From Turritopsis dohrnii (Eukaryota > Cnidaria > Hydrozoa > Anthoathecata > Oceaniidae), in the NCBI GenBank assembly GCA_027922465.2, contig BQMF02000060.1, forward strand, positions 806,001 through 870,000: a DNA stretch of 64,000 nt, written 5' to 3'. The notes under the pieces are model-generated. The model had not been told where the DNA came from and ran no database searches. It saw nothing but the letters and a program-made list of their open reading frames with translations. Positions 21,492-54,599 of this stretch are shown here, piece after piece. Positions within the stretch are counted from its first letter, which is position 1. The number at the start of each line of letters is the position of its first letter. A program made the position numbers and the translations under genes.

Positions 21492-22172
21492 TCATTCAGG
21501 AGATCTCATATCGAGTTCCTTCTCAGCCTGAATATTACGAGGAGGAGGATGGGCACAAAGAATACCCTCTGAAATTGTCTGGTTGGTGATGTGTACAACC
21601 ATATGTTTGATGGCATATTCTGCTAACTGGCTTGGTAAATACCACGCCTGGTCATCAAAATCGACCAGGGAAAAACGCTCATCAGTCACTTTGGACTTTT
21701 TTGTTGGAGGTTGATCCTCATATTGGGAGGCTTCGTCCTCAGGCAGATGTCTTTTCGATGATTCACCCTCGGTTGTGGAATTTTGCACATCCACTTCTTG
21801 AGAGTTTTCTGGTGTCACTTCACTCATTCTATAAGAAATGCGGGAAAACATTGAATGAAAATCATGTTTCCTACCCTTAGGTCTATCATCCCTGTATGTA
21901 GGTAATTTTTTCAGAGGCCTTAACGCTACCACCTCTTCGTTAGGTGGTCTGACTATTATCTTCTCTTCTTCAGGGAGTCCAACAAATACCTCCTCTTTTT
22001 CAGGGGGTCTGACATATACTTCCACTTTTTCAGGGAGTCTGACATGATTAGTCCCCTCTGTAGGGGATCTAACATCATATATCAATTCATCAGATGCTAC
22101 AGGAGTTTGGTTAGCTTCCTTTTCTAGCTCCACTCTTCTCGATGGAAGATTGAGCGCCACACGTGCAAACAT
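21492..22172 (-). CDS. DIRS Gag-like ORF1
   Basis: A 226-residue minus-strand ORF at the 5' end of the DIRS element. It is very acidic and repetitive: a run of short units of the type RLPEKVEVYVRPPEKEEV, each about 14-16 residues, followed by a Ser/Glu-rich part and PTKKSKVTDERFSLVDFDDQ. No zinc knuckle. The position between the terminal repeat and the RT frame is that of the DIRS ORF1 (Gag-like) protein. Palindrome 1 cuts this ORF: the mirror copy (41380-41820) has only the first 146 codons and ends at the junction. Confidence 0.72.
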   Translation of the reverse strand: MFARVALNLPSRRVELEKEANQTPVASDELIYDVRSPTEGTNHVRLPEKVEVYVRPPEKEEVFVGLPEEEKIIVRPPNEEVVALRPLKKLPTYRDDRPKGRKHDFHSMFSRISYRMSEVTPENSQEVDVQNSTTEGESSKRHLPEDEASQYEDQPPTKKSKVTDERFSLVDFDDQAWYLPSQLAEYAIKHMVVHITNQTISEGILCAHPPPRNIQAEKELDMRSPE

Positions 22173-22663
22173 ACGGAATATGTTGTCAAAACCGTCTGAG
22201 TAATGTCCCCGCTGTGTTCAATACATCATAAATTTCTCAATTTATTATAACAAATGCTAAGATCGAGTAGATAATTAGTGATAATTTCAATATTTATTAA
22301 CTCACCTGTCTTCGTGTTGTTTTCCTGTCGCGAGAGAGAAATAAGAAGGGAGTTGAGGCTATAGAGATTTCATGAAATGAAATTACAGTAATGCGTTGAT
22401 GTTTGTTGACCATTAAGCAAAACAAAGGGAAGCAGCTTAATTGTTTTTTATTGTTAAAACGATGTGGAATATAAAAGTCACAGATCTTGAAAGCGTTTTT
22501 GTTGAACACAACATGATATCTTTTAAACACAAAGCTATGAAACCGTATGATACAATAGAAAGTAAACTTTGATTATTCCCAAAACACAAATAACAGTTTC
22601 TCAAAAGATAATTTAAAAGATCGTTAAATGTGATGTCTTTAAAAAATTGTTCCACCATCATTG
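22173..22663. other. DIRS 5' untranslated region
   Basis: Between Gag and the right terminal repeat. It contains GGGAGTTGAGGCTATAGAG at about 22339, matching the motif near 17930 (in inverted orientation), and CATGAAATGAAATT, both also found in the internal repeat zone. No gene seen. Confidence 0.5.
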
Positions 22664-23030
22664 CCCCCGTTTTTTGTTGAAAGTTGAAGATTTGATGTTT
22701 CACGTAAAATCGCTACTGAGGGGTACTTCGGGTCCCATATCTTCTGAACGACCCATCAGTTTGCCCTCAAACTTTATAACTTTCTTTGCCTAAGGCAGGG
22801 CTACCACTGGTGCAGAAATGAAAGTTATAGCTTAAGTAGAAAAAAAGCTTTATTTTTTAAATCGCAAATTTAACCGCTAAGAATCGCGAATTTTTCGACC
22901 AAAAATATACTCAAATATAGTGCTTTTGATTATCTAAAACATGCAAAAAAAAGTTTTGGAATCGGAAGTGGCTATCAAAAGTTATGAGGTAATTTGTTTC
23001 CACTGCCAATTATATTGAGACAGACTTTAA
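22664..23030 (-). repeat. DIRS inverted terminal repeat, right
   Basis: Reverse complement of 16995-17359. It lies inside the left arm of palindrome 1 and so reappears at 40520 to about 40887. Confidence 0.9.
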
Positions 23031-25002
23031 TTTTTTTACACAAAAAGTGCTGACGTCAGCACTCACGTGACATTCAAGAGTGTCTCTCTCAAAAAAATGT
23101 TTCTTACATTATGGGGAACATTTGTGGAAAGTTTCTTGCTTCTATCACAATTTGAAGTATTTTTGTGCTAAACGACTCCACTATGTATTTTATTTTGTTG
23201 GTATGAGCTCAATCTGCATTTGTGCATTTACATTAAGCTATTCAAGAATAGGATAAGCTGATGAATATCCAATCTTCAGACACTTGGTGAAACCATGCCA
23301 CCATCATCTTTGGTTTTAATGTTGTATTTTTTACAGTAAATCTTATGACTCCTGATTCATAATGCCCTTAATGAACAGTTGAACTGCTGTGTTTATCCAT
23401 GTCATCCTGTCTGGCCCAGAAATTTCTTTGAAGATCATTAGTATGGTTAAAGACAGATGGAATTTAAAAATGTTTCCACACTGATATCAGCATTGCGGTC
23501 TGATTCTTCATCAGACCTTAATGTTTGTGTTTCACCAGATGAATAAAACGAATGGGGTTGTTTCGTTATTGGTTTATCATTTACTTGACCTCATCAAAAC
23601 AAGGGAGCTTTTAGGTGTGCAGTGTCTGTACTGCGTAGTTTACTGTGTAAGTACTGTCAGTTGTTGTAAGCTTGTGCATTCTATTTTTTTTTTTTTTTAA
23701 ATCTATCATCATCTCGATCTTCGCAACATAAAGCTTTCTTTCGAGTACACGACTGAAGCCTCTACTGTATATTTTTTCCCAGCTATGTTAAAACCAACGT
23801 CTTGTTTCCTTTGACCTTTTATTTTTAGTTGTAACTTTTCAACCATGTTCATTCTAATAAAACAAGTTTAATACACTACCTCGTTATGATGGTTTATTAA
23901 AAACTCGTTTAAATTAAGCAGAATTTATCAAAACATTACTTCGAGTTACCTGATCTTAATTTTGGATTGAAGGAGGTGTTAGTTAGCTCAGAAGTAACGG
24001 GTGAACTTATGAATGTTGGCAAGGAAACCTAGTGTATATCTTTACAAATGATTTTATAAATAAATTTGCAAGATTAACGTCTTGAAACGTCTGTTGTGAA
24101 TATAAGTAAGCATAATGGTATTTGGAGGCTCAAATTCTGCAAACGACAAACAAGACTGAAGCTGAAATCTATTTACCCTGATACTTGTTATAAAAAAAAC
24201 TGGATGTAGAAGCAATGTGCAATGAATAGTGTAGTAGTGAATAATAGTGAATAGTAATGAATAGTGACCATACCTTTAGCAGGGGTGTTAGCCGAAGAAG
24301 AAGAACATGGAGAAGATGATGCAGGAAACATAACTCCTGATTCATAATGTCCTAAATGAACATGGACAGTTGAACTGCTGTGTTTGAAAAAAGGAGAAAT
24401 CTTTTTTGCTGCTATGATATCTTTTTAACTTTAAACCAAAACTAGTAAATCAATTCGGAGAAACTCAAAGGCAACAAAACCTTGTTAAATTGCTTGACAC
24501 AGAAACAGAATCATACCTGACAGGTTTGTAGCCCTTTTCACTTATGTGTTGCTACAGCATCCATGTCATCCTGTTTGGCCCAGGAATTTCGTTGAAGATC
24601 ATTAATATCGTTAAAGACAGATGGAATTTTCATAGAAATGGTAAAAACTTTAGAAAGAAAGCTCCTATTAAGCTCATTTTACTACAGGACCTCCATCTTG
24701 ATATACAGAAAATCTCCTGAAGCTACGTTCATTTAAAAATTGGAATTGTTCCGAAAACGGTAAATTGAAAAAATGGGCAAAAAAAACATTGAAATATAAA
24801 AGTTACATTAAAAATTTCCAGCAACATAAGAATTTCCTACTTCTTCTTGGTCCTGTCAACCCTTCTTAATGGCTCTTAATTTTTTACTTCTGTTTTTAGT
24901 CTTTAAATGGTCTTTTCTAGCCATATTACTCAACCGGGCTTAATGTTTATGATTCGATTCCTTTTCTTATTTTCATATTACTAGTAGAATATTTTAACAA
25001 AT
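23031..25002. other. Left-arm spacer DNA with diverged repeats
   Basis: No solid gene. It contains two copies of one module (about 23340-23470 and 24330-24620) and a poly-T run at 23682-23698. An exon-like stretch at 24274-24380 (minus) reads VHVHLGHYESGVMFPASSSP with splice-like borders, but no family is recognised. Mirrored at about 38545-40519. Confidence 0.5.
23047..23062. promoter_or_regulatory. Palindromic CRE next to DIRS terminal repeat
   Basis: GTGCTGACGTCAGCAC is a perfect 16-base palindrome centred on a full cyclic-AMP response element (TGACGTCA), followed by CACGTG at 23064-23069, an E-box. It lies 17 bases outside the DIRS terminal repeat. Mirrored at 40488-40503. Regulatory function is not shown. 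Confidence 0.4.
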
Positions 25003-25401
25003 TTACTTATTTTGAACCTTCGATTCCACCATTTCCGAAACCTTTACACAAGTCCCTCCAAACCTCGTTGACAGGGATTCCGAGAGATAGTTTAGAGCAA
25101 ATCTCATCTTTGACGGAATTGGTTGATATTTTGTGTTTTGAATCGTCAAACGATGGTTATGCGAACTTATGTATTTAACTTCAATCTTATTTGTTGATAA
25201 GTTTTTTTGTAACATCATTCTTGCCGGGCAGAAGTAATTCCTCTTGACTTTTCCGTGATGTATCTTTCTCTGATTTTTATGTAATTTTTCGGACCCACCA
25301 AACTGACAGTTATAGTAAATATGTTTACTGGTTGAACTGGTAGTATCTCCCCTTTGCTTAGTAAAATACACAAAATTATTCAGTTCTTCTCTTTCTTCCA
25401 T
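25003..25401 (-). CDS. FLYWCH/MULE-type zinc-finger fragment
   Basis: 132 residues: HIYYNCQFGGSEK, then NYFCPARMMLQKN, VKYISSHNHRL. The C...C-P-A-R-M...H-N-H arrangement is the WRKY/GCM-like zinc finger of FLYWCH proteins and of MULE transposases. No catalytic domain follows, so it is a fragment or a domesticated DNA-binding module. The bases before the Met (reading LINHQRDVHELATYVKLLSF in a neighbouring frame) look coding too, suggesting a small frameshift close to the start. Confidence 0.55.
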   Translation of the reverse strand: MEEREELNNFVYFTKQRGDTTSSTSKHIYYNCQFGGSEKLHKNQRKIHHGKVKRNYFCPARMMLQKNLSTNKIEVKYISSHNHRLTIQNTKYQPIPSKMRFALNYLSESLSTRFGGTCVKVSEMVESKVQNK

Positions 25402-26294
25402 ATATCAAAGTCAACCATTGAATCAAAGGACAGCAATTTTACATATGTGGCAAGTTCATGTACATCACGCTGGTGGTTAATAAGGTCAAGTTTCATGTAA
25501 AAAGATTCGCTGCAATGAGAAAATATGCAAGGAGTTCTCCTTTCGGTTGTTCTTTCACCTTTGTAAATAAAGTTCTTTTAGAGTATGTCTCTTTAGATTA
25601 TCTTTACGCATGAAGGCTGAAGAACACCAGTTGAATGACCCCCTGTGTATGTAGCATAGTAGAAACATGTGCTATAGTAGAAACTCATTCATAATTCTTA
25701 AAATTGAAAGGGATTTCTTTTATTGAGAGATTTTTTGTTAACATAGTTGTTAATTTAAGAAACAAGGATGGTTTCTATTTAGAGAGTTCCGTTGTATCTT
25801 TATTAAACAATGAGTTAAAATGTGTTAAAATGGGCAATGTTAAGCCTTTCATTTTCTCTAGAATATATGTACATTTAAAAAAAACTATGCAAAACAGACT
25901 TAACAGACATATAAACCACATAAACAAATAAAGTATCACCATAAAATAAATGAAGAGGATAATACAGTTTGAAAATAAAAACACAGCGTTACATGTAGTT
26001 ATAAACAGCCTACATTTTGTATGACTTGAATTATAATTGTCCACGAAGATTGAAGAATTACCTTGGTAGTTTTGGTAAAGTAATTAGTGCTACACATGAA
26101 AGCAATAAAAAATTTCATTGTTCCTTCATTATTCAGGTGGCTTTATGGAAACTTTCAGGGTTGTAAAAGTAAAATTTGAGTATGAAAACATAACATGAAA
26201 CAGAAAGAAATGGAGGTTGTACTACACTATATACAAGCAACTTAATACAACTAAAAATAAATGAAAATAAACGGACGATAAAAACATTTAGCAA

Positions 26295-27350
26295 TCAAAT
26301 ATCCTTGCTTTCAAACCCACACATTCTTGGCGTAACGTTTTTGGGAAATGTTTTGAGGAAACCCGGAATGAAAGGGTAAAGGCTATTGGTCTCATCATAG
26401 ATGAACCAGTAGCTTATCTTTAATGGTACCCATTGAACACCCAAATTCTCCAGGCAAATGATTCGATGGTTCCCTTCCGTCAAGTACGCCCTTTGACTGT
26501 CTTTGCTGACCGCCAAAATTAATGGCTCTTTCAACCCATTGTGTTTGATATTATCTTGCAGTCTTTCAAGATACTCATCGTCGTTGATGTACTTGACGTC
26601 TTTTGTCCTGTCGAATTCGATGTAATTTTGCAACACTGGCAGTCTTACCAGTTGTACATTCTCTTTGGAGTATAATTTTGATACAACATCTACTTTTTCT
26701 GTTAGATTCCGGTCATAAGCATTTTTCCCTTAAAGAAAAATTTTTGTCTATATCTGCTTTTCATAGTAACAAACGTTAAAACAATTGCCTAGTATAAATA
26801 AATACATCACATCATAGTTTTACCTTTCTTCCGTGTTTGCTTGAGTGATGTTCTTTCTAAAAAAATAATAACAAATACTTCATACTTGTATTTTTTTTTT
26901 TCGAATTTCTTAAATAACATAGAAGAGAATTGAATAAGCATCACTACACACACTACAATTGAACTTTTTCATAAATGTAAGATCTCTTACTTTCCCAGTG
27001 TTTGTTTTCTTTGTTTTTATTGTTTTTTTTCGTTTTGGTATGATTGTTAGAATTTGACATCTGCTGGTGATCCTTTTCGATTTTTTCATTTACCACTCCT
27101 TCAGCTGATAAGCAAAAGAAAATTGATTAAACAATTGATTGATTATAATTACATTAAGGGATCGAAAATTCGCATGTTTATCCCCTACAAAACGAACATA
27201 TGCATAAAACATAAGTAAAAAATTTAAGTTAAGGTTCTAAAGAAGCTAATATTTTTTTACTTTCCAGAGCTTTCTTCTGCTTTCCTTTATTTCTTTCCGA
27301 TTTGTCATCCTGATCAATTTGGATCCCTTCTTTCACCACTCGTTTAAATG
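26295..27350 (-). CDS. Multi-exon gene with ParB/sulfiredoxin-like domain
   Basis: Exons on the minus strand, mirrored from the plus copy: 27350-27261, 27104-26991, 26856-26824, 26728-26295. All phases agree (phase 1 at every join). The first two exons are related to each other (FKRVVKEGIQIDQDDKSE and EGVVNEKIEKDHQQMSN), lysine-rich and probably nuclear. The last exon holds the domain: YIEFDRTKDVKYINDDEYLE, NIKHNGLKEPLILAVSKD, RAYLTEGNHRIICLENLGV, VPLKI. The E-G-N-H-R-I box is the nucleotide/phosphate-binding signature of the ParB/Srx fold. The 5' end was not found. Function unknown; ParB-fold enzymes include CTPases, nucleases and kinases. Confidence 0.68.
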
Positions 27351-27589
27351 CTAAGAAAAATGGAAAGTTTAAGATACTTTTTTGTGATATTTTTTTCTGT
27401 ACACCCTGTGAATAGATAATTATTATTTCACCGTTGATGGTATACCATTCTATTTTTGGCTAATTAATAAAAGAATTAAAGTTCACCTACCAAAAGTATG
27501 AGTAAATTTTGATTATACAAGCATTTGGAGGTTTGAGAGTTATTGATAATAATATTGATACCTTTAGATGTATTCGACAAGTTCCCAGC

Positions 27590-27730
27590 AGGCACGCCAA
27601 CGTTGATCCAACGTTGCACCAACGTTACACTTAACGTTGGTTCAACGTTGGTATACGGTTGGTTTTGAAGGGTTTTTTAACGTTAGATTCCGACGTTGTT
27701 ACAACGTCGCTTTCCGATGTTGCGCCGACA
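27590..27730. repeat. Dense CAACGTTG-type motif block
   Basis: Many copies of CAACGTTG and close variants in about 140 bases (CCAACGTTGATCCAACGTTG and onward), in alternating orientation; AACGTT is itself palindromic. Mirrored at about 35818-35957. A related but different ACGTTG-rich block is at 63440-63640. Confidence 0.75.
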
Positions 27731-27734
27731 TTAC

Positions 27735-28205
27735 CTTATTCGGAGAAATTTTGGCGCGGATTTAATTTGGCGCAGCCAGAAAAAAGTTAAATTTAGCGCG
27801 GATTTAATTTGGCGCAGCCAGAATGTTTCAAAAATTTCATAGTCGTTTAACGAATCAATCAGAACTAATTACAGTACCATACATTCAAAGAAGGTGAGAC
27901 GGTAAAGCATAGAACTTCAAACATTCATGTATTCATGACTTTTTTTATTAAAACTATAAACAGAAGATTCACGACAGTGATATAACAAGAAAAATTAAAA
28001 GCGTGACAACACTATTTACCTTATTCGGAGAAATTTTGGCGCGGATTTAATTTGGCGCAAGGCAAATTTGGAATATTTGGCGCGGATTTAATTTGGCGCA
28101 GCCAGAAAAAACTAAATTTGGCGCGGATTTAGTTTGGCGATTTTTGGCATTTTGCGCCAATTGCGCCAAATTTTCTCCGCGCCAAAATTTCTCCGATTAA
28201 GGTAG
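27735..28205. repeat. TTTGGCGCGGATTTAATTTGGCGCA repeat array
   Basis: Interrupted tandem and inverted copies of a unit built from TTGGCGCGGATTTAATTTGG, with ends ACCTTATTCGGAGAAATTTT and AAAATTTCTCCGATTAAGGT forming inverted termini. It looks like a small inverted-repeat transposon, possibly two nested copies. Mirrored at about 35342-35812. Confidence 0.7.
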
Positions 28206-28259
28206 TTTGACGTTGGGACAACGTTATTCCAACCATACCTCTCCGTTTACGTCGTACTA

Positions 28260-29371
28260 CTATTTTGATACAACGTTGCTACAACATTCTTGCAAAGATA
28301 ATGATGTTTTCAAATTCTTGCAACTGGTACCACTGACTGATAGATTTTCCAATTCTGAAATTCGTTTTACTACCTGACTTAACGGATTTTGGGCTTTTCT
28401 TACGAACTTTTTGATCACTTGCAAAAAATTTTCGAATGGAAAAGAGGATATTTCATTCAATGAGGTTCCAAGGAATTCAGCATCATCTACTATGTGCATT
28501 AGATTGTGCACATTATATACCATAAATGAGTCTCCATAAAAATCACAAGCCTTGGAAACAAAATATCTCAATAAACCATTGGCATAATCTAGTTGACGGG
28601 CATTTTCATTCTCATCCAGCAAAATTGTCATAGCAAGACACAGTGACAGAAAATGCTCATATTGTTGGTCAGATAGAACATCTCTCAGTACAATGTAACC
28701 AGAGTATAAGATAAATTCTCTGAATTCAGTTGCTTTCCAACGCTTCACATGTTCAAGGCTACGAGGCTGTCGGGCAAGTTCAGAAGGAAATTTACCTGTG
28801 AACTCCATCAATGCATTCGAAGTTGAGTTTGTGATAAACGAAAATTACGTGGACCAGTTTCTTTCACTACAATAAAATTCGCTTCACTACACCTAAACAA
28901 ACTAAGTGCATATAGTCTAGGGGAAATTGACCAATGCAATCAAAGTCGTAGTCAAGTAAAACTGAGCACCCAAGTTGATGACTACCAGCATAATCATAGT
29001 TATTAAAACGCTTTACTGTTGTTGGATTGCAATTCACTTGAGATAAAAGCATACGGGAATTTTGGTAGTCACCTTTAATTTCACAACGTTCACAACAGCT
29101 ATAACCAGTGTGGCCTTTAACACACTTCAAGAACTGCCGGGCTGGAGCATCACATATAAATGCTGACACATTTATGCCAACGGTTACTGCATTTAAGTTA
29201 ACACCGTTGATTTTTAGATATTGGTACTCAACTAGAAAATCTGATAAAAATTCTTTTAAGTCATTGGGTTTCTTTGTTCCATAAAATAAAGCTGCTACAA
29301 ATGACCTTAAGTTGCCAAAATTGATCACCAGTAGATTTGTAGACAGGCACACCATCAACATTAACTTTCAA
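28260..29371 (-). pseudogene. Tnp2-like (CACTA-group) transposase, C-terminal part
   Basis: Two minus-strand ORFs, 29361-28867 and 28811-28260, from one gene. The first reads FVAALFYGTKKPNDLKEFL, AFICDAPARQFLKCVKGHTG, YSCCERCEIKG and FPLDYMHLVCLGVVKRILL; the second reads FPSELARQPRSLEHVKRWKA, TEFREFILYSG, and VHNLMHIVDDAEF. These blocks, including CDAPAR, HTGYSCCERC and DYMHL, are those of long transposase-domain proteins related to CACTA/Tnp2 families in invertebrates. Just before the first ORF, in another frame, NVDGVPVYKSTGDQFWQ continues the same protein. The N-terminal part is in palindrome 2 (46783-47289). Confidence 0.65.
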
Positions 29372-31718
29372 CAGGGCCCCCGCCATGGATTTCAAAGTGG
29401 GGGGGGGGGCTAAAAAATAGAATAATTTGCCTAAAAATGTCGCCCACCATGGTTGGGCGACGAAGAAAATTTTGGCTTCCAGGGTCTCTAAAATGACCTC
29501 AAATCGATTTCTGGGGATAATTATGGCTAAAAATTTCCATTTTATTAAGTGTGAAATGTTGTGAAAAACGCAAATTGTTCAAGAGAATCTTGGTTATCTT
29601 GTGAATGTAAGAAAAAGGAAAATGGTCCAGAAGTGTAATGATACCGCAAGAATTCGACAATGGAAACTATTTCTATAACGTTAACACGAATCAGTCAAAG
29701 AACATTTACTACATGCTCGTAAACACATTCATAAAAATTACTGTAATAAACTTTGAAGTCAGTACATCTGGCAAAATGCTAAGTAGATAAATGATGATAG
29801 TAGATTGCCTTCCAGACTTTCAAACGGAATTTTCCAGCTTGAGTGCATGTTACAAGTCACTAGTTGAAAATCTCCCAAAATGGTTGTAGCGTTTCTCATG
29901 TCCAGAAACGAATACGTTTGCTACTTCAACTAAGTCCAAATCATCAGTAACATCTTTATGTGATGTTAGTATTGCCAATGCGTTGAACCTTTTTTGTGTC
30001 ATGGTGGTCCGTAGCCATGTTTTCACCCTTCGCATCATCGAAAACGAACGCTCAGCAGTCGCAGTTGTTGCTGCCACTACTAGCAAAAGCTTGAGAATTT
30101 TTATTACCGACGGGATCATTAACCAATTATCGCGATCACATTGTTTTAGCACTTCGATGACTTCTAAAGTGTGTGAAGGTTTGTTTTTCTTAGCAATGTT
30201 CTTTAAGACTTCAAGCTCAGTGCCCAGCAACGTAACATCAACGTCATCACCAAAAATATTTGTCATCTCCTCAATTTCGTCACTTGCATCTTTACCTTCC
30301 ATTCCTTTAAGGAGCACCTGTTCCATTGTGCAAAATGCCTTAAAGCTTGGTTGCTCGAAACGGGACATGAGAGCCTGAACGATGGAGTCAATTGCTTCAA
30401 AATACAACGGTCTATAGTAGTCTTCAACTGTTACTGCGTGGTGACTTTCAGCTGATGGATGCCCTTCCACATGAGTTAAAATTGAATAGTTTGGTCGGTT
30501 ACGTTTCCTTGGCAATGTTGGTGACTCTATCTGGGGATGAAGTGAAGCCTTTCTTGACACAACATCAAAAAATAATTGAAAGTTTTCATCACTACGCAAG
30601 CCCATTAGAGTGTCTTTTGTCAGCAAAGCTAGCCTGAGTGCTGCAATTCCAGGCAAGGTTTTGCTCTGTAGGGCTTTTGACAAATTGTCGGTGTGGCTAT
30701 AAAGTCTTTGCCCCAAACACAGGCCAAAAAAGAACTTAAAAGATTTCATTTGCGTCTGACAGCCAATAATCCTCGAGCGAACATCAGTTGTTAGCTTTGC
30801 CTGCAAACAAAGGTCCCAAAGCTGTTGCAAGCTGTCGAACTGGTCAATTATTTTTTGGAAACAATTGGCTCTTACAGTCCAACGGGTTGCACACAATTTA
30901 TCAAGGGATTCTCCTCTTACTTCCAGTCCTTCTTGGTCAAGTCCTTCTACATTGTCGACGATGTTGCCAAGTATTTTTTCTCTCTTCGGAGAAAACTTTA
31001 CCAAAACAGTTATCTCACCAACTGTTCCCATAGTGTCCCCTAAAAGTTTGCAACTGGAAGTCAAATCTTTAACAGCAAGACTTACGGAGTGTCCGCAACA
31101 GTGTGTAGGAAGAGCTTTGGGTTGTATTGCTGATAGTTGCGTAGCAACACCACTTTTTTTACCAAGCATGTTACTAGCGCCATCGTAAATTTGACCACGA
31201 CAAGAGTCTAATGACAAGTTGAATCTTAAAAGGCTATCTTTAATTGCTGCAACGATCGTATCGCTCTTTATGTTATCTACTTCATAAAAACCTAAGAAAT
31301 CTTCATGGACTTCGAGATCATCATCTACGCTTCGAATATTAAAGGACAGCTGTTCTAAGTTCCTACAGTCTGTTCCTTCATCGCACATGATGCTAAAATA
31401 ACCATTTTCTCTTATTTCAGCTACTTTCTTTGATAAAACCTGCTTAGCCATGAAAGAGGAATCATACATTACTAAAGGGTTTCGTTCTTGGAAAAAGGCT
31501 CCAAAATGTTTTAATGATCATCAAAACTCAAATTGCCACAAAGCTGCTGCTTCATATCACGCTATTCAATCAAACGATATTGGAGATTTAGTAATAAAAG
31601 TTTAGCTGATTCTAGGAAGGACAATAGGTCATATTTAATTACAGTCATTAGAGGACTTCGATATTTAGCAAGGCAAGGCATTGCAATTCAAGGAACCCAT
31701 GGGTCCGACAATTTCACC
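29372..31718 (-). mobile_element. hAT element with CAGGGCCCCCGCC terminus, 3' half
   Basis: The terminus CAGGGCCCCCGCC at 29372 (plus strand) is preceded by TTCAA, the complement of TTGAA. Inside lie about 480 bases of noncoding DNA, including an 11-12 base G run near 29400, then the transposase C-terminal ORF on the minus strand. The other terminus is not in this palindrome: it is in palindrome 2 at 47295. Confidence 0.8.
29850..31469 (-). CDS. hAT transposase, C-terminal 539 residues
   Basis: True transposase sequence probably begins at MAKQVLSKKVAEIRENGYF (about 31450); the first seven codons come from the rearranged junction. Blocks: FSIMCDEGTDCRNLEQLSFN (first Asp), GQIYDGASNMLGKKSG (second Asp), LPTHCCGHSVSLAVKDL, CATRWTVRANCF, and the C-terminal dimerisation block ATTATAERSFSMMRRVKTWL ending near SDL. 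This is the DUF4371/hAT_C architecture found in ZMYM-like and KIAA-type hAT proteins. The frame is completely open. The N-terminal BED/TTF-type zinc-finger part is displaced to the palindrome centres, so no copy in this window is complete. Confidence 0.88.
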   Translation of the reverse strand: MYDSSFMAKQVLSKKVAEIRENGYFSIMCDEGTDCRNLEQLSFNIRSVDDDLEVHEDFLGFYEVDNIKSDTIVAAIKDSLLRFNLSLDSCRGQIYDGASNMLGKKSGVATQLSAIQPKALPTHCCGHSVSLAVKDLTSSCKLLGDTMGTVGEITVLVKFSPKREKILGNIVDNVEGLDQEGLEVRGESLDKLCATRWTVRANCFQKIIDQFDSLQQLWDLCLQAKLTTDVRSRIIGCQTQMKSFKFFFGLCLGQRLYSHTDNLSKALQSKTLPGIAALRLALLTKDTLMGLRSDENFQLFFDVVSRKASLHPQIESPTLPRKRNRPNYSILTHVEGHPSAESHHAVTVEDYYRPLYFEAIDSIVQALMSRFEQPSFKAFCTMEQVLLKGMEGKDASDEIEEMTNIFGDDVDVTLLGTELEVLKNIAKKNKPSHTLEVIEVLKQCDRDNWLMIPSVIKILKLLLVVAATTATAERSFSMMRRVKTWLRTTMTQKRFNALAILTSHKDVTDDLDLVEVANVFVSGHEKRYNHFGRFSTSDL

Positions 31719-44796: not shown

Positions 44797-45533
44797 TTGT
44801 GCTTAATAGCATCGCATGTTGAATATAATACTTTGGTCTGTTGGATGACCCTGGTCTACTCGATAATCCAATTTCGTGTAAGAAGCAGTGTAAGAAGAAA
44901 CAACACGAGGAAAAGAAAAAGCAAGATGGCGCGTCGACAAGCAGAACGAGACTTGGTGGATTCTCTCCACGATCTTGTTTCGGCTGCCAAACGTGTTGTT
45001 CCAGAGGTAATGGAGTCAACGTCAGAATCAACGGATCAATCAGTACATACTGCGTTACGACGACTGTATCCAAGTGGGCGTCGTGCATCATCCTTGCCTA
45101 TCATTACTAGTGAGGATAGTAACATGGCATCATCATCGTCCACCGCCATAATAACCAGCAGCCCACAACCAGTAGGAAAAGTAGCATCAGTACCCTATCA
45201 GCTTACTACACAACATGTTTGGGGAAAACAGTATTCAGGAAAACGAAAGGCTTCGCATGTCAAAAAATGTCACTCTCAGAAAAGCATAAATAAAAAACAC
45301 AAGCAAACAGAATCTTTGAAAGATATAATATTTATAAATGATCCAAAGATATCCACAGTGCCTCGAAAATCTGATAGATCATTTTACTATCAAAATAACT
45401 TGGTTACCTTGGCAGTAAAATTTACAAGTGGTATGAATGTAGAAGAGCTGCAGAATACCATAAGGGAAAACTTGCCAAGCTCTTGCAATCATTTTAAATT
45501 TCAGTTTGTGAAAGCTGTAGAGGATTCACTTAT
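44797..45533 (+). CDS. Uncharacterised basic, Ser-rich protein, first exon(s)
   Basis: The ORF continues to 45609, but a good splice donor (TAT|GTATGTA) at 45533 suggests an exon end after VKAVEDSLM. A likely start is the Met in KSKMARRQAERDLVDSLHDL. A basic region (GKRKASHVKKCHSQKSINKK) precedes NLVTLAVKFTSGMNVEELQN, which resembles the region before HECT-like domains in transposon-linked G2E3-type proteins; this is weak. Function unknown. Confidence 0.45.
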
Positions 45534-45609
45534 GTATGTATTATTTATTCATATTTTATCCGAAACTGATGTACTTACACTGCCTGTCACTACTTTATTA
45601 TTTATATAG

Positions 45610-46782
45610 TCATTCAAGAGATAAACTGTTTATTTGCAACACTGGCTGCAACAAAATAAATATGTTTACTACAGATGTGACACATAATTTGTTACATCAG
45701 TTTTTTACTTACTACATTGATGTCTTATTTTGGTTGTATGCATATGTAAAAAGAAGAAGAATTAACCAAGATCTGATATTATAGGAAAGCTTTTTCATAA
45801 TTGAATTCATCCTCAATCATAATGACAAGTGACATATATTTTTTTCATGTTTACTCTTCTGAAATGATGTTTCTACCAAAGCATTTCATTTGTTGTTCCA
45901 AAATTTTTTTACAGTAGCAGTGTAAGCGAATACCATATCAAAACACCCTCGGACTATTCCTATTACTACTACTAGTCCCTTTTAAGCGTTTCTAGTTTCG
46001 TTTAAAAGACACTTTTTCAAGTGAGTTGTCAGTGCTCACCTAATCGCACACTATACAACTTTTTTCAGTGGGAAATAATCTCTACAGCAATGTTTATTAC
46101 TCCTTAATCCTTATAGTCAAGAATGTCAAAACCTAGAATGTTTTTTGATAAATTTTCTTAAACAAGGAATTTTTAAATTTTCTTATATATTTTCCACGTT
46201 TTTTCTTATGACTGCTCTTTTTATACATAATTACAAATTACATATGTGTTCACTTCATTTCTTTTGTGTTTAAACAATAAGTTTCTCAGGTGGTTTTATT
46301 AAGCCTGATCTATACTGATAGTTGCTGTACGGTGTTTACTAAAACATTTAAAGGCCCTTAAACTTAAAACTTTAATTAAACTTTTTATGAAAATTTATGT
46401 TTTGCGTGTTGTCATTAAACTAAGAGGACATATTATGTGCTGCTACTGTTTGCGCCATCCTGCTCTTGTTATATATTCAATGTGCCTTCATAGTTCTCAA
46501 TTACGTGGGCAAACACACAATTTATTTTGTTGCACCCTTTTCTGTGATTTCCTTTAAAAGTGATACAGTTTAGTTGATAAAAATTGATTTTCTTGCATGT
46601 CTTATTCTTTGCTATCTTTTTATTACTCTTGTTTAAAATCTGTATTGACACCTGGAACAGTATATAGTGCAGAAGTATAGTATGAATAGAAGTATTGTGA
46701 CTGAGTGTGATGTAAAATCACAACAACATTGAAAAGTTCCCACATGTTCACTTTCTCCTCTTGTTTTTTATGTAGCTTTAAA
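45610..46782. other. Arm B spacer, nothing recognised
   Basis: AT-rich, with short hydrophobic ORFs that do not look like genes. May contain further exons of the preceding ORF. Mirrored at 49638-50810. Confidence 0.45.
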
Positions 46783-47289
46783 ATGAGCAAGAAGAAAAGT
46801 GAATATTTGAGAACATGGCGAAAAGAAAATAAGTTAATGCAAGATTTTTTACTTAATACTGTAAGTGAAAATAATAGTAGCAATTCTCCTTCTGAGTTGG
46901 ATGAACAATCTCAAGTGAATATTTCTGATATGAGTATCGATACAGATTATCAAAACCACCATTCAGTTGCTGAAGATGTAGATGAAAATGATGAGAATGA
47001 GGAAGATGAAGACGACTTAAACATTAGATGATGAAATTGACCTTTTGGAAAACAAAGATTTATTAGATGAAAACTTGAGCATGGACATAGGTAAATGGAT
47101 CCTTAAAAACAAGATTTCTAGAACAGCAAGTAATGAATTATTAGCAATCCTACGAAAGCATGGTGTTGGTAACCTCCCTAAGTGTTGCAGGACTATTTTA
47201 CAAACTCCTCGCCTGTTTACCTTGGCATAATAAAAGGCATTGATCGAGTTTTGTCAGAAAACCCTTTTTTTGAAATTGCAGAAATTTCC
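46783..47289 (+). pseudogene. Tnp2-like transposase, N-terminal part
   Basis: Starts MSKKKSEYLRTWRKENKLMQ, continues through an acidic stretch, shifts frame near 47025, then LSMDIGKWILKNKISRTASN, ELLAILRKHGVGNLPKCCRT and, after another shift, YLGIIKGIDRVLSENPFFEI. The block W-x-K-x-I-x-x-A-x-N-x-L-L-x-I-L-R and LP-x-x-x-R-T-x-L is the usual opening of invertebrate Tnp2-like transposases. The gene is cut at 47290-47294 (TTGAA) by the hAT terminus; its continuation NVDGVPVYKS is at 34184 in palindrome 1. Confidence 0.65.
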
Positions 47290-47595
47290 TTGAACAGGGC
47301 CCCCGCCAAAGGGGGGGCTGGGCTATAGAATACAAATGTAGTTTCTACCAAGTTCTTATTTTCCTGTTTCCAACTCATTATTCATTCAAAAAACATTGTT
47401 GTTCCGAATTGTAAGCTAAGCGCACGTGTTTTCTTTATGCATTTAATTCGAATTCAATTGACAATTGAATTCGAATTCAATATAAAGAAAACAATCGAAA
47501 GAAATTTGGAAACTTTTCTGAAGGCAAAGGTTCATGTTAGTTTCGATACGATTATATATATAATTGTAAAATAACGTTGAAACGTAGGCTTCAAG

Positions 47596-48338
47596 ATGAG
47601 TAAAAAGTTAACAGATTATTTCTTTAAAAGAAGATAAAGTTTCTTCAACGCCGCAAACTGAACAAAGTACTTCTGTTAATGGCTGTTCATCTGTAAACAG
47701 CGATGTAAATATGCTTGATGTAAATAATCCTACTGTACATACTCCCGTTGTCAATACTCCTGCTGTAAATAATCCTGTAAATATTTCAAGTCGCATGCTT
47801 AATGAAGATATAAAAACACCTTATCATCCATCGACTTCGTTTAATTTTCCCAAAACGACATTTGGCAAACAAGATCGATCATGTCAAGCTTCTTGGTTTA
47901 TTAAATATCCTTGGCTACATTACAATGAAAGGTATGTACATTTCCTTATTTGAGGGTGATGATATATTTGAGCCAGTTTTTGTTTGGTTTCAGTCAAGAA
48001 TCTTGGCTAGTTTAATCAATAAGAGACGCGGGAAAATGTCTCAGCTTAAAATCAGCTGACAGCGATTTTAAGTCAAGGGCTCCTATCGTTCACCCAAGCT
48101 TATTAAATTTTGTTATCTTACACACCGAAAACTCTTTATTTTTGGAATTGCATGTAGGGGAATCGTAGTAGGTTGACTTTTTCAATCTTTTCTACATAGA
48201 TCATTTTGCTGCTTTTAGGAACGACTGCTTGTTATGTTTCTACTGCTACTCACAATCAAAGAGAGGAACATTGCTGTCAGAACGTAACAAAGAGGAATCA
48301 TACATTACTAAAGGGTTTCGTTCTTGGAAAAAGGCTCC
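47596..48338 (+). pseudogene. hAT transposase N-terminal exons
   Basis: Exon 1, 47596-47931: MSKKLTDYFFKR, a one-base frameshift near 47630, DKVSSTPQTEQSTSVNG, imperfect VNNP/VNTP repeats, then TFGKQDRSCQASWFIKYPWL. Exon 2, 48219-48338, after a GT-AG intron (47932-48218): NDCLLCFYCYSQSKRGTLL, EESYITKGFRSWKKAP. The join gives YNERNDCLLCFYC, the TTF-type zinc finger used by DUF4371 hAT transposases. Exon 2 stops at the palindrome 2 spacer edge. Confidence 0.8.
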
Positions 48339-48347
48339 ACTTAAAAT
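48073..48347 (+). other. Palindrome 2 spacer (275 bases)
   Basis: Single-copy centre holding the end of an intron and the zinc-finger exon of the hAT transposase (48219-48338). Its last 48 or so bases repeat the sequence at about 31458-31505 next to the centre of palindrome 1. Confidence 0.92.
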
Positions 48348-48485
48348 CTTAAAATCGCTGTCAGCTGATTTTAAGCTGAGACATTTTCCCGCGTCTCTTA
48401 TTGATTAAACTAGCCAAGATTCTTGACTGAAACCAAACAAAAACTGGCTCAAATATATCATCACCCTCAAATAAGGAAATGTACA

Positions 48486-48824
48486 TACCTTTCATTGTAA
48501 TGTAGCCAAGGATATTTAATAAACCAAGAAGCTTGACATGATCGATCTTGTTTGCCAAATGTCGTTTTGGGAAAATTAAACGAAGTCGATGGATGATAAG
48601 GTGTTTTTATATCTTCATTAAGCATGCGACTTGAAATATTTACAGGATTATTTACAGCAGGAGTATTGACAACGGGAGTATGTACAGTAGGATTATTTAC
48701 ATCAAGCATATTTACATCGCTGTTTACAGATGAACAGCCATTAACAGAAGTACTTTGTTCAGTTTGCGGCGTTGAAGAAACTTTATCTTCTTTTAAAGAA
48801 ATAATCTGTTAACTTTTTACTCAT
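48486..48824 (-). pseudogene. hAT transposase N-terminal exon 1, mirror copy
   Basis: Reverse-complement copy of 47596-47931 (approximately 48489-48824). Exon 2 is not duplicated because it lies in the spacer. Confidence 0.75.
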
Positions 48825-49125
48825 CTTGAAGCCTACGTTTCAACGTTATTTTACAATTATATATATAATCGTATCGAAACTAACATGAACCTTTGCCTTC
48901 AGAAAAGTTTCCAAATTTCTTTCGATTGTTTTCTTTATATTGAATTCGAATTCAATTGTCAATTGAATTCGAATTAAATGCATAAAGAAAACACGTGCGC
49001 TTAGCTTACAATTCGGAACAACAATGTTTTTTGAATGAATAATGAGTTGGAAACAGGAAAATAAGAACTTGGTAGAAACTACATTTGTATTCTATAGCCC
49101 AGCCCCCCCTTTGGCGGGGGCCCTG

Positions 49126-49637
49126 TTCAAGGAAATTTCTGCAATTTCAAAAAAAGGGTTTTCTGACAAAACTCGATCAATGCCTTTTATTATGCCAAGG
49201 TAAACAGGCGAGGAGTTTGTAAAATAGTCCTGCAACACTTAGGGAGGTTACCAACACCATGCTTTCGTAGGATTGCTAATAATTCATTACTTGCTGTTCT
49301 AGAAATCTTGTTTTTAAGGATCCATTTACCTATGTCCATGCTCAAGTTTTCATCTAATAAATCTTTGTTTTCCAAAAGGTCAATTTCATCATCTAATGTT
49401 TAAGTCGTCTTCATCTTCCTCATTCTCATCATTTTCATCTACATCTTCAGCAACTGAATGGTGGTTTTGATAATCTGTATCGATACTCATATCAGAAATA
49501 TTCACTTGAGATTGTTCATCCAACTCAGAAGGAGAATTGCTACTATTATTTTCACTTACAGTATTAAGTAAAAAATCTTGCATTAACTTATTTTCTTTTC
49601 GCCATGTTCTCAAATATTCACTTTTCTTCTTGCTCAT
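49126..49637 (-). pseudogene. Tnp2-like N-terminal part, mirror copy
   Basis: Copy of 46783-47289 on the minus strand (ORFs 49691-49389 and 49375-49190), with the hAT terminus ending at 49125. Confidence 0.65.
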
Positions 49638-50810
49638 TTTAAAGCTACATAAAAAACAAGAGGAGAAAGTGAACATGTGGGAACTTTTCAATGTTGTTGT
49701 GATTTTACATCACACTCAGTCACAATACTTCTATTCATACTATACTTCTGCACTATATACTGTTCCAGGTGTCAATACAGATTTTAAACAAGAGTAATAA
49801 AAAGATAGCAAAGAATAAGACATGCAAGAAAATCAATTTTTATCAACTAAACTGTATCACTTTTAAAGGAAATCACAGAAAAGGGTGCAACAAAATAAAT
49901 TGTGTGTTTGCCCACGTAATTGAGAACTATGAAGGCACATTGAATATATAACAAGAGCAGGATGGCGCAAACAGTAGCAGCACATAATATGTCCTCTTAG
50001 TTTAATGACAACACGCAAAACATAAATTTTCATAAAAAGTTTAATTAAAGTTTTAAGTTTAAGGGCCTTTAAATGTTTTAGTAAACACCGTACAGCAACT
50101 ATCAGTATAGATCAGGCTTAATAAAACCACCTGAGAAACTTATTGTTTAAACACAAAAGAAATGAAGTGAACACATATGTAATTTGTAATTATGTATAAA
50201 AAGAGCAGTCATAAGAAAAAACGTGGAAAATATATAAGAAAATTTAAAAATTCCTTGTTTAAGAAAATTTATCAAAAAACATTCTAGGTTTTGACATTCT
50301 TGACTATAAGGATTAAGGAGTAATAAACATTGCTGTAGAGATTATTTCCCACTGAAAAAAGTTGTATAGTGTGCGATTAGGTGAGCACTGACAACTCACT
50401 TGAAAAAGTGTCTTTTAAACGAAACTAGAAACGCTTAAAAGGGACTAGTAGTAGTAATAGGAATAGTCCGAGGGTGTTTTGATATGGTATTCGCTTACAC
50501 TGCTACTGTAAAAAAATTTTGGAACAACAAATGAAATGCTTTGGTAGAAACATCATTTCAGAAGAGTAAACATGAAAAAAATATATGTCACTTGTCATTA
50601 TGATTGAGGATGAATTCAATTATGAAAAAGCTTTCCTATAATATCAGATCTTGGTTAATTCTTCTTCTTTTTACATATGCATACAACCAAAATAAGACAT
50701 CAATGTAGTAAGTAAAAAACTGATGTAACAAATTATGTGTCACATCTGTAGTAAACATATTTATTTTGTTGCAGCCAGTGTTGCAAATAAACAGTTTATC
50801 TCTTGAATGA

Positions 50811-51623
50811 CTATATAAATAATAAAGTAGTGACAGGCAGTGTAAGTACATCAGTTTCGGATAAAATATGAATAAATAATACATACATAAGTGAATCCTC
50901 TACAGCTTTCACAAACTGAAATTTAAAATGATTGCAAGAGCTTGGCAAGTTTTCCCTTATGGTATTCTGCAGCTCTTCTACATTCATACCACTTGTAAAT
51001 TTTACTGCCAAGGTAACCAAGTTATTTTGATAGTAAAATGATCTATCAGATTTTCGAGGCACTGTGGATATCTTTGGATCATTTATAAATATTATATCTT
51101 TCAAAGATTCTGTTTGCTTGTGTTTTTTATTTATGCTTTTCTGAGAGTGACATTTTTTGACATGCGAAGCCTTTCGTTTTCCTGAATACTGTTTTCCCCA
51201 AACATGTTGTGTAGTAAGCTGATAGGGTACTGATGCTACTTTTCCTACTGGTTGTGGGCTGCTGGTTATTATGGCGGTGGACGATGATGATGCCATGTTA
51301 CTATCCTCACTAGTAATGATAGGCAAGGATGATGCACGACGCCCACTTGGATACAGTCGTCGTAACGCAGTATGTACTGATTGATCCGTTGATTCTGACG
51401 TTGACTCCATTACCTCTGGAACAACACGTTTGGCAGCCGAAACAAGATCGTGGAGAGAATCCACCAAGTCTCGTTCTGCTTGTCGACGCGCCATCTTGCT
51501 TTTTCTTTTCCTCGTGTTGTTTCTTCTTACACTGCTTCTTACACGAAATTGGATTATCGAGTAGACCAGGGTCATCCAACAGACCAAAGTATTATATTCA
51601 ACATGCGATGCTATTAAGCACAA
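50811..51623 (-). CDS. Uncharacterised basic, Ser-rich protein, mirror copy
   Basis: Same 270-codon ORF as 44797-45609, no difference seen; the same donor would end the exon at 50887. Confidence 0.45.
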   Translation of the reverse strand: MCLIASHVEYNTLVCWMTLVYSIIQFRVRSSVRRNNTRKRKSKMARRQAERDLVDSLHDLVSAAKRVVPEVMESTSESTDQSVHTALRRLYPSGRRASSLPIITSEDSNMASSSSTAIITSSPQPVGKVASVPYQLTTQHVWGKQYSGKRKASHVKKCHSQKSINKKHKQTESLKDIIFINDPKISTVPRKSDRSFYYQNNLVTLAVKFTSGMNVEELQNTIRENLPSSCNHFKFQFVKAVEDSLMYVLFIHILSETDVLTLPVTTLLFI

Positions 51624-51787
51624 CAGTTATGGTATCATATTTAATAGATACGTTTAAAGCATGTAAAGCAGAATATTAACGGTTTGACAGTAAAAAAGTA
51701 TAACTAAAAAAGTATAAGTCAAAGATCATGATAGAAGTATTAATCATAAAAGATAATCGTATAATCGGCTGCAATAGTTTTATAATA

Positions 51788-52876
51788 CAGTTGAACTCAT
51801 GTAATTCGAATCTACAAGGGGTCTAAAAAATTGTTCGAATTACATGAGTTTTCGAATTATAGGAGTTCAAGCTTAATCGGCAGAATTTTGGAAAAAAAAA
51901 CTGACTTAGGGGTGTCTAGACGATACTAAATGGTGTAAAGGCTTTGTGGCAGCCAAATAAATGTACAAAACAAAGTTGCATAGCTTTCAAGTATGTTTAT
52001 TAGGAACGTGACATATGACATGACAGACATGTTTACATAGGGCTATTAAAAAAGTCCGTTATCGAAGTTTGTTTCATTCTCTCAAGTCTCGCTAGGTTAA
52101 CTTTTAACAAGACTTTTGAGAGTAAAGGATCCAGTTCCAAATCAGATGTGAACAAGGACAACTTCTGTAGGATTTCAATTGCCTTGTCAACTTCATTTTG
52201 TGTTGGTGGAGATATTGGATCGTCGGCTATATCATCCTCGTCGCTGCTAATGTCTTCAGTTTCAACATTGTCCAATGGTCTCATGTATTCGTCAACGATT
52301 TCGTCAACAGACAATGGTTGGGATTGATAGGTCAATACCTCTATGTCGAAATCGACGAGTGTGTCAGCATTGAGGTCTTCAGGGGCCAGGTCAGGCCTTG
52401 TTTCGCGTAGACGATCCAAGTCCATCACAAGTTCTTCTACAACATTGTCCTCTGATTCGTTAGCACTTTCAACGTCATCGGCTACCTCCCTAAATGGTGT
52501 CCTAAATGGATCGTCGTCATCATCCATTGCCCCTTTCCTAGATTCTTCTGATATTCCAGACTTCCTGAAGCAATTGACAATTGTTTTTACAGTGACTTCA
52601 TCCCAAGCTGCCTTGAGCATTATCATGGCTTCATGATCCATGCGTTCGAAATGTGTAGACGATATTCGAATGTCGGAAATTCGAATTACATGATAAAAAT
52701 ATGACCAGGGGACCAAAGAATTTGTTCGAATTACATGAGTATTCGAATTATAGGAGTTCGAATTAAAGGAGTTTTTTTTATAAGGTTTTAACAGTAATTT
52801 CGGAACGGACCGAAACATTTGCTCGATTTAAATGAGTTTTCGAATTATAGGAGTTCGAATTACATGAGTTCAACTG
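51788..52876 (-). mobile_element. Deleted Tigger/pogo element, mirror copy
   Basis: Mirror of 43544-44632 with TA flanks and the same transposase fragment (52818-52033). A substitution is visible near 52825 (GCTCGATTTAAATG against the mirror's TTTAAATCGAACAA). Confidence 0.88.
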
Positions 52877-54599
52877 TATCAATAGTTCTAAAATCGAATT
52901 CATAGTAATAAATCGGGTTTTGGCGCGCGATACGAGACAATGTGTTTTATGGAATCGGGTGGAAAGACTACTTTAGTTGCTATTAATTCTTTTAAGGTGT
53001 TTTGCGAAGGTGCAATATTTTAACTTTAAGGGATTGTTGTTACGGACAAGACTTTTGCAATGGTGTTTTATTGATCCAATATCATCAACAACATCGATCA
53101 GCGATCCCCAGCGTGTCGCCTCAATCACACCAGCAGTATCGTCATTCACTGTCTTTGCAATCCTGTTCATAGGCGACGTCACATTTTATATTATATAACT
53201 GACCAGAGGCCAACTCTTCAGCATCTTTAGCTTAATTTTTCAGGTTTTTGTTATGTTTGAAACCTACTTCTTTTTGTGTCAGAAGTTTCACATCTGTTTT
53301 GTTGGTGGTGACAACACCCCTCTTCTTATATCAAGACGGTCCAGTTTTACTCGAGAAAAACATTCGCACTGATTGTGAGATGCACATCTACAGTTTATCA
53401 GTTAACTCCTGAACAGTTTTTAGAAATGATTATGAACATATTATTGTGAGATAATTAAAGTTGTTTCCAGATCAGAAGATTTTTTATTCATACGAATAAT
53501 GTTGGCCATCTCAAATATACTGGAGTGGTTTACATAAACTAAATTTTCAAGCTTTATATTCGTTGTTTCTAATTTTCCAGTTTCTCAACAAAAACTGAAC
53601 TTTGGCTTCATTTTGTAATTAGACTGAAAGAAGACATCTGCTTTTCTATGTGATGAGGTATTAAAGTATCTTTCAAAATAACAATAAAGCAACATGACAG
53701 AACAATGGCCAACTCCTCCATTATGGACTGTTGCATTTGGTCCATAATTAAAAAGAAAGGCATCACACTTTCGTTCCCACCAAAAAATTAATATGCACTT
53801 ATATCACTAAAGAGATATAGCCAAAAGTCAGTTGAAAAGCAAAAAAAGAATTTTCAAGTCATGGTTTCCAGACAGCAAAAATAAAAATATAAGGACTCTA
53901 AAATTTAGTGGAAAAATTTCGGCTGTACTTCCATGAAAGACACGTGAAACATTTTTCAGAGCAATAAGTGCAATTTCATTCTGCTTGCACCTGAATATGT
54001 TTTATTCAAGGTTTCAAAATCATGGCAAAATAAGTCATGGTTTTGAAAATCTGAAAATGAGCGAAATTTAAGAATACCACTTCTAAGCTCTGTCTGATTC
54101 TTCAAGTAGGTTTCCTCGGGTGAGAATTCTAATTTCTTACTGATGTGTACGATTAAATTTTCCATAAGAAATTGTGTTGTTACAATTTTTTTTTTCGATT
54201 TTTATTTTTTATTTTTTTTGAATATTTATATGTTTCTAATATGTTATCTATGTTTCGTGTTGATGGATTAAAAAAATTAAACTAGTATCTATCGTTGTGT
54301 AAAGTTTTTTTTTTCAGAATGGGTGTATTCGTTTAGAGCCTCATTAAGGGAATAGGACTCTTCAGTTCGTGACCTTAAATGTTTGGTACATGTATTAGCA
54401 TCTGGTCTGCGGTCAGCTGAGCAAATAATTGCAGATTATCAGCAGGGGAAGATCTGGTTTGGATATGAAGCTTGTTTCTTGTTCAAATATTAAATGCATT
54501 GTTTTCATTTTGATGTTGAAATTGTTTAAAAATTTTGAACACCTTGAAGATTACTAGTTCTATCTAGGATTTAAGGTCAAGAACAACAGTAACAGTTTT

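Follow-up and report, generated by a model that had tools for sequence, protein, structure and literature searches.

The window, the whole 64,000-nucleotide stretch of the Turritopsis dohrnii genome analysed here, contains two giant palindromes (P1 and P2) placed back to back, and self-comparison of the window found both of them as the sequence-only reading had described. In P1, positions 21732-31718 match 41821-31829 in inverted orientation over 9,994 columns at 99.81% identity, with 11 mismatches and five gap openings; in P2, positions 41820-48072 match 54599-48348 over 6,253 columns at 99.94% identity, with three mismatches and one gap opening. P1 consists of an outer A arm (21735-31718, minus strand), which is attached to the left flank Y, and an inner A arm (31829-41817, plus strand), placed by self-comparison and alignment to a hAT transposon. 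P2, delimited by self-comparison, consists of an inner B arm (41820-48072, plus strand) and an outer B arm (48348-54599, minus strand), the latter apparently attached to the right flank X. Each pair of arms encloses a single-copy spacer of hAT interior, and the sizes proposed earlier, 110 bp in P1 (31719-31828) and 275 bp in P2 (48073-48347), are borne out, as are the two filler bases between the palindromes: the A arm proper stops at 41817, TG occupies 41818-41819, and B begins at 41820. The description of the arms as having almost no indels was slightly generous, because there are six indel events, one adjoining the A/B joint (dependent on the alignment) and five within A or T runs of the arm interiors; the substitutions also mentioned there are present and number 14. 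The next-longest inverted pair in 264 contiguous kbp (the window plus 200 kbp) spans 899 columns at 90.5% identity, and is so much shorter that a chance origin of the palindromes is excluded. No other long palindrome was found in this control, which is one 264-kbp stretch around the locus rather than the whole genome.

Both palindrome centres fall inside one 3.45-kbp hAT transposon, which was not visible to the sequence-only reading. Alignment to an intact copy found elsewhere in the genome (L009, whose positions are prefixed here with h) maps the centres to h845-1435 of a single element. The inner copy of the hAT 5' part (47295-48339, plus strand; the intact copy aligned to 47328-48339) extends from the terminal inverted repeat (TIR) CAGGGCCCCCGCC to a turn-round tip at h1112, and the outer copy (48348-49125, minus strand) reaches h845. 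The inner copy of the 3' part (32094-34175, plus strand) runs from h1435 to the 3' TIR, and the outer copy occupies 29372-31453 (minus strand). A 539-amino-acid transposase open reading frame (ORF) in the inner 3' part (32078-33697) gave profile matches to DUF4371 and Dimer_Tnp_hAT; in a scan of eight arm ORFs, hAT families were found in one, the others yielding sub-threshold matches or nothing. At the centre of P1 lies a middle piece, M (31453-31830, plus strand; h1062-1440), inverted with respect to the adjoining outer 3' part and followed by a second, partial and inverted M copy (31828-32094, minus strand; h1330-1062), which is evidently a later revision of this centre. The P1 spacer corresponds to about h1329-1438, and the P2 spacer to h846-1112 plus the eight nucleotides CTTAAAAT; the P2 spacer continues from the inner arm without a break, and does not do so from the outer one. 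The turn-round tips overlap in a 51-bp segment, h1062-1112 (48289-48339, plus strand), and self-comparison found this part of the P2 spacer again within the P1 arms, at 31453-31503 and, inverted, at 32044-32094. The tip at h1062 was read through the revised P1 centre. All hAT positions alignable to the intact copy (h100 to the 3' end) are present at least once, the TIRs are intact, and the element is flanked by a 5-bp target duplication, TTGAA. Cleavage by the hAT transposase was rejected as the cause of the rearrangement, because the breakpoints are internal to the element and its ends, TIRs and 5-bp duplication included, are intact.

The hAT element is inserted into a DUF4218-type transposase gene, of which the downstream part lies at 34176-35287 (plus strand; PF13960, below the cut-off) and a short upstream part at about 47.02-47.29 kbp, in B. 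When the gene is joined over the empty site, the alignment crosses the joining point in 117 of the 120 listed homologues; only two of the 120 homologue alignments are gap-free over residues 80-112 around this point, and the gaps there are short in the six alignments displayed. The existence of unrearranged hAT copies elsewhere, the 5-bp duplication and the splitting of the transposase gene between the arms together indicate that the ancestral order was X-B-hAT-A-Y, and that it has become X-B-B'-A'-A-Y. In detail, the present order reads X-B (to h845) / h1112-B' / TG / A'-h1062 / h1435-A-Y, with the P1 centre later revised. A LINE-type element (RVT_1; 18177-22364, minus strand; its right limit is set by genomic copies, its left one by ORFs only) identifies the derived joint. 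Copies of this LINE elsewhere are unbroken over 21000-22364, that is, through the left outer border of A, whereas matches to the LINE from the inner copy end at the A/B joint, where the element is cut; thus the A/B joint is the derived one. The exception is a LINE copy on C27 that matches both sides of the outer border in two pieces and lacks 21651-22008, and we count it against the fold-back reading given below.

Searches with arm stretches covered the 436-Mbp assembly, with 40 of 485 and 40 of 536 candidates scored. Among the candidates scored, the non-repeat part of B (41820-43540) and the A stretch 34100-39500 are full-length only at two places each, all in the locus, and the remaining matches to the searched stretches are shorter repeats. 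An alternative haplotig was rejected, since among these candidates the searched B and A stretches are complete only at this locus. The order rcA-A-B-rcB had at first suggested a linear element with hairpin ends; this idea was also set aside once a split transposon and interspersed repeats were recognised in the arms.

The substitutions between arms cluster at the distal ends of the arms, away from the centres (combined mean-position test, p about 0.002). The earlier suggestion that the structure is actively homogenised is weakly supported by this clustering insofar as it fits conversion from the centre, but a change of template would fit as well; arm-to-arm conversion may perhaps have homogenised the arms outward from the centre. 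Palindromes of the sex-chromosome type, which gene conversion keeps, are marked by genes in the arms and by homogenisation over long times; on these two counts the locus shows differences placed away from the centres and the outcome of the arm ORF scan given above. Polarity was assigned to 10 of the 14 substitutions (24293, 24924, 41903 and 42544 gave no polarity), against a background that included L033-L034, 20 kbp of C300. Seven are strongly polarised by comparison with other genomic copies, six being new in the inner copies and one in the outer. The weaker calls place 24595 and 27696 in the inner copies and 43598 in the outer, for a total of eight of 10 inner; the excess of new mutations in the inner arms is not significant in either set (6/7, binomial p=0.125; 8/10, p=0.11).

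That both mirrors lie inside one broken hAT element suggests a single break repaired by fold-back of both ends. It is rather probable that one staggered break occurred in hAT, that both ends folded back, and that the two new arms were joined end to end. The earlier proposal of a recent rearrangement is thus supported, and its route would be two fold-backs from one hAT point plus one end-to-end joint. The staggered double-strand break would have produced 3' ends near h1112 on the left and near h1062 on the right, a stagger of 51 nt, and the 5' strands may have been resected to h845 and h1435. Each end would then have been either replicated, with fusion of the sister ends, or folded back so that its 3' tail primed synthesis, to give inverted copies B' (about 6.3 kbp) and A' (10 kbp), whose free ends would have been joined with two filler bases. 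Later the P1 centre may have broken again and been repaired via a second, small fold-back; the few substitutions would have gathered in the arms since then, fewest near the centres, with arm-to-arm conversion as a possible cause.

Several features bear on this reading. The two fold-back junctions lie on opposite sides of one ancestral break with tips overlapping by 51 bp, and adjacent breakpoints of the same orientation are present on the B side (845/1112) and, read through the later revision, on the A side (1435/1062). Independent tips would fall within 51 bp of each other with p=0.006 over the 16.5-kbp unit, or 0.029 if both must fall in hAT. The contiguity of the P2 spacer with the inner arm counts against this reading: sister-end fusion allows it, but simple self-priming by a 3' tail would require a later flip of the spacer; the original arm of the P1 spacer is hidden by the later revision of that centre. 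Also counting against it, the B'-A' joint would need two further breaks or the dissociation of both new strands. By eye the junctions carry little or no microhomology (0-2 bp, plus the eight-nucleotide repeated CTTAAAAT at P2 and the 2-nt filler at A/B). This is in keeping with the reading, yet as fold-back microhomology it seemingly falls short of the 2-8 bp that 13 of the 21 human junctions in PMC3907307 showed.

Serial template switching within one replication event (FoSTeS/MMBIR) would follow a path from X-B through a strand switch in hAT, back along B, by a jump to the far end of A, back along A, and through a further switch in hAT to Y. It would yield the identical final order with three switches and nothing lost, agrees with junctions that carry minimal microhomology and a short repeat, and could account for six of seven strongly polarised changes in inner copies through error-prone synthesis, at the binomial p=0.125 given above. 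It gives no reason for both switch sites to fall within 51 bp, however, and the substitutions are denser far from the switches, so that we regard it as rather unlikely. Quite improbable is a route in which B-hAT-A was first duplicated in tandem and an inversion then followed, each hAT copy being broken once. It would produce the same order and a P2 spacer contiguous with the inner segment, as seen, but it would take two events, with breaks arising independently at almost one and the same place in two hAT copies, and homologous recombination does not invert direct repeats. The A/B joint is what would be carried by a circle of B-hAT-A (the end of A joined to the start of B) that was cut in hAT and re-inserted inverted into the chromosomal hAT. 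Homologous re-insertion would give direct rather than inverted copies, and end-joining at the identical hAT position would be a coincidence, which leaves the circle highly improbable. Triplication by ODIRA is ruled out by copy number and order, the arms occurring twice in the window and the searched stretches twice genome-wide.

The palindromes are known here from assembled sequence alone, and an artefact of amplification, fold-back reads or assembly had been proposed. All five interior arm indels lie in A or T runs, and fold-back reads are common in some data: they made up 40-50% of whole-genome-amplified PacBio reads in the Arabidopsis samples of one report (PMC6218980) and about 0.55-0.6% of ONT genomic reads in another (PMC12870357), whose PacBio HiFi data contained virtually none. 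An artefact would, however, require two fold-backs at one 51-bp site plus a third, chimeric joint. The h1062/h1435 joint is carried on both P1 arms, with a second fold-back nested at the P1 centre; 14 substitutions separate the arms, the seven strongly polarised ones falling in both arms (six inner, one outer); and no other long palindrome occurs in 264 kbp. An artefact is unlikely, given that both fold-backs share a break point, that there is a further joint, that the centre of P1 has been revised, and that substitutions can be polarised.

Because their arms and centres decay, giant palindromes are usually too old to show how they were born. At this locus, where arms and flanks are all present, the transposon allows the break and the presumed limits of resection to be placed to the base, and likewise the fold-backs and the final joint. 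It is conceivable, though we propose it tentatively, that when both ends of one break in an animal germ line fold back and the new arms join each other, two giant palindromes can arise as a stable pair within a single cell cycle and with no sequence lost. If so, large palindromes could be born by a loss-free route, followed by centre revision and outward homogenisation, for which the locus is a natural test case. Cancers are where reciprocal foldbacks have been described; here the pair would be inherited and kept on one chromosome, and the pathway, if real here, can leave a retained, loss-free product in an inherited genome.

In the breakage-replication/fusion model (Zhang et al., PMC12807874), staggered broken ends are replicated and fused, giving adjacent parallel breakpoints, and 23 instances of reciprocal foldbacks are reported there in data from 2,588 cancers. 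As in those instances, two junctions here face away from one break, and each joins adjacent parallel breakpoints, which at this locus are separated by 267 and 373 bp. Unlike the junction calls from cancers, both fold-backs here lie on one contig and are joined to each other, and the full sequence of arms and spacers is available in one genome assembly. Short single-copy spacers are described as the mark of fold-backs by Hermetz et al. (PMC3907307), and this locus resembles their human fold-back inverted duplications in having a short spacer that is not duplicated and corresponds to the fold-back loop. The human cases reported there accompany terminal deletions, translocations or rings and have sequenced spacers of 766-70,466 bp, whereas here both ends of the break are present, no loss of hAT is seen, and the spacers measure 110 and 275 bp. 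In yeast inverted duplications induced by double-strand breaks (PMC10622511, PMC7467729), a resected end likewise folds back and is copied, but those products are described as dicentric or as stabilised by secondary rearrangements, for example telomere capture, and not an interstitial pair as here. ODIRA (PMC4689423, PMC10766183, PMC10766186) also creates two palindromic junctions and loses no distal DNA, and results in three copies, the middle one inverted around an origin. In contrast, the present locus has two copies of each arm in the order B B' A' A, and its middle, A.B, was not contiguous in the ancestor.

The two giant palindromes that the sequence-only reading had recognized, placed back to back, are real features of the sequence, both arm pairs being recovered in self-comparison. 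The arms of the first palindrome (P1), 21732–31718 and 41821–31829 (inverted), align over 9994 columns with 99.81% identity, and those of the second (P2), 41820–48072 and 54599–48348 (inverted), over 6253 columns with 99.94% identity; the spacers are 110 and 275 bp long, respectively. At the joint between the palindromes (A|B), the A arm proper extends to 41817, the filler TG occupies 41818–41819, and B begins at 41820. The complete list of arm-to-arm differences comprises 14 substitutions and six indel events. Within a contiguous 264-kb stretch that includes the locus, the runner-up inverted pair has at most 899 columns at 90.5%. A cluster of short direct/inverted repeats (around 41–95 bp) with GGCGC motifs, matching many contigs, is located at 27731–28204 and its mirror, 35343–35816.

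Each P1 arm contains a 539-aa ORF for a hAT transposase, with DUF4371 and Dimer_Tnp_hAT domains; three of its 120 listed relatives carry organism names, all cnidarian (Clytia, Paramuricea and Dendronephthya). An unrearranged copy of the element elsewhere in the assembly (L009, contig C189) matches, in the sense direction, 47328–48339, then 31504–31830, and then 32094 to the 3' end, and three further copies (L010, L011 and L012) have the same order wherever aligned. Thus, the P1 and P2 centres both belong to a single transposon, in which they lie next to each other. The hAT element of the window has the terminal inverted repeats CAGGGCCCCCGCC, with TTGAA on either side, at 47290–47294 (in B) and 34176–34180 (in A). 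Excision of the element plus one TTGAA fuses B to A into a DUF4218-type transposase reading, composed of four frame pieces strung together, which has 3177 relatives; 117 of the 120 listed align in one piece across the joining point, and only two of these 120 alignments are gap-free over residues 80–112. The organism names among them are those of two hydrozoans, molluscs, echinoderms, fish and one bacterial MAG. Based on the split hAT, the flanking TTGAA and the rejoined reading, the ancestral order was X-B-hAT-A-Y, in which X and Y are the right and left flanks, both reversed. The target duplication of the element (47295–48339 plus 32094–34175) is 5 bp (TTGAA); that of hAT elements is usually 8 bp.

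A LINE-type element spans the left outer border. Eight other copies (C490, C5, C312, C95, C187, C146, C63 and C117) are unbroken through 21735 over all or nearly all of 21000–22364, and shorter matches in two further copies (C1 and C45) also cross 21735; the copy on C27 consists of two pieces, one on each side of 21735, without 21651–22008. In these contigs, the inner A arm has LINE matches only up to 41817 or an earlier point; the left outer A border is therefore the ancestral one, and the new joint is A|B. Adjoining the 5' end of the LINE is a high-copy interspersed repeat (22383–23031), of which the first 218 bp match many contigs at 96–98%; five sampled copies match the whole 650 bp (96–97%), and a partial inverted copy exists at 16994–17361.

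In positions of the intact copy L009 (h), the present path on the P2 side runs from X through B up to h845, then from h1112 backwards via the inverted copy B' to the start of B, followed by TG; on the P1 side it continues from the end of A backwards via the inverted copy A' to h1435. The P1 centre reads h1062–1330 forwards, h1440–1062 backwards, and then h1435 forwards via A to Y, the h1062/h1435 joint being present on both P1 arms. All intact-copy positions that align (h100 to the 3' end) are present at least once. The P1 centre may originally have had a simple form with a single h1062/h1435 joint, later broken within the middle piece (h1062–1440) and mended by a second small fold-back; this later break would lie near h1330 or h1440, and the sequence fits both. 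The simple form has outer ends at h845 and h1435 and inner tips at h1112 and h1062, whose overlap of 51 bp is a segment occurring three times in the window.

All four of these points are consistent with a single staggered break, which would leave 3' ends at h1112 and h1062, with the 5' ends resected to h845 (267-nt tail) and h1435 (373 nt). Zhang et al. (PMC12807874) describe a model for cancers in which the ends of a staggered break undergo replication and the sister ends then fuse, producing breakpoints that are adjacent and parallel, and report 23 instances of reciprocal foldbacks in data from 2588 cancers. Tandem duplication followed by inversion, re-insertion of a circle, and random template switching are all less favoured than one event, because the chance that independent tips fall within 51 bp is only 0.006 over the 16.5-kb unit and 0.029 within the element; this proximity is the main argument for a single break. 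The one step that we only infer is the joining of B' to A', which would require two further ends and predicts, for one, a reciprocal X–Y deletion on the sister chromatid. The P2 spacer runs on from the inner arm without interruption; sister fusion allows for this arrangement, and simple self-priming does not unless the spacer was flipped later; in P1, the revised centre hides which arm the spacer continued.

An artefact would be in keeping with the abundance of fold-back reads in certain long-read data sets (PMC12870357, PMC6218980) and with the arm-interior indels, all five of which are in A or T runs. However, it is unlikely, since it would require two fold-backs at a single site and a third joint with filler, and is opposed by the h1062/h1435 joint carried by both P1 arms, by a P1 centre that was revised in nested fashion, and by substitutions in both arms after polarising against other genomic copies. 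The strongly polarised new changes are in the inner arm for 22607, 22753, 22857, 25163, 25306 and 31527, and in the outer arm for 22512. A search of the host assembly (435.9 Mb, 891 contigs; 40 of 485 and 40 of 536 candidates scored) recovered the B stretch 41820–43540 and the A stretch 34100–39500 at full length only at their two places in this locus, and thus revealed no unrearranged allele of either. The gene content is animal-like, with a Mediator subunit 27 match at 55–570 and immunoglobulin-like matches below the cut-off at 62484–62903; the host may be a cnidarian. The immunoglobulin-like matches mark a putative ORF, surrounded by a 2.1-kb repeat (61890–64000, the right end of the window) that recurs directly oriented just outside, at 64188–66304 in window numbering, with 98% identity; 0.56 kb of it is present a third time (94%).

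Nine of the 11 substitutions in P1 are in the 3575 bp most distant from the centre, and all three in P2 are in the most distant 1779 bp, limits that were fitted to the data, as the simulations take into account (change-point p = 0.02 and 0.04; combined mean-position test p ~0.002). The longest exact arm-to-arm runs are 3830 bp in P1, stopping 192 bp before the spacer, and 4474 bp in P2, extending to it. In this small sample, the distal substitutions would be explained if conversion between the arms began at the centre and spread outwards; a template change during synthesis is another possible explanation.

The phrase reciprocal foldbacks reportedly also occurs once in a pancreatic-cancer genome preprint, and the other papers listed for it or for similar wording seem, from their titles, to be on different subjects. 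Systems for comparison are the fold-back inverted duplications of human (PMC3907307) and yeast (PMC10622511, PMC7467729) and the inverted triplications of ODIRA (PMC4689423, PMC10766183, PMC10766186). The closest published system is that of reciprocal foldbacks, a phrase used four times in PMC12807874; no germline foldback pair joined in cis was found in the open-licence literature, surveyed mostly by title.
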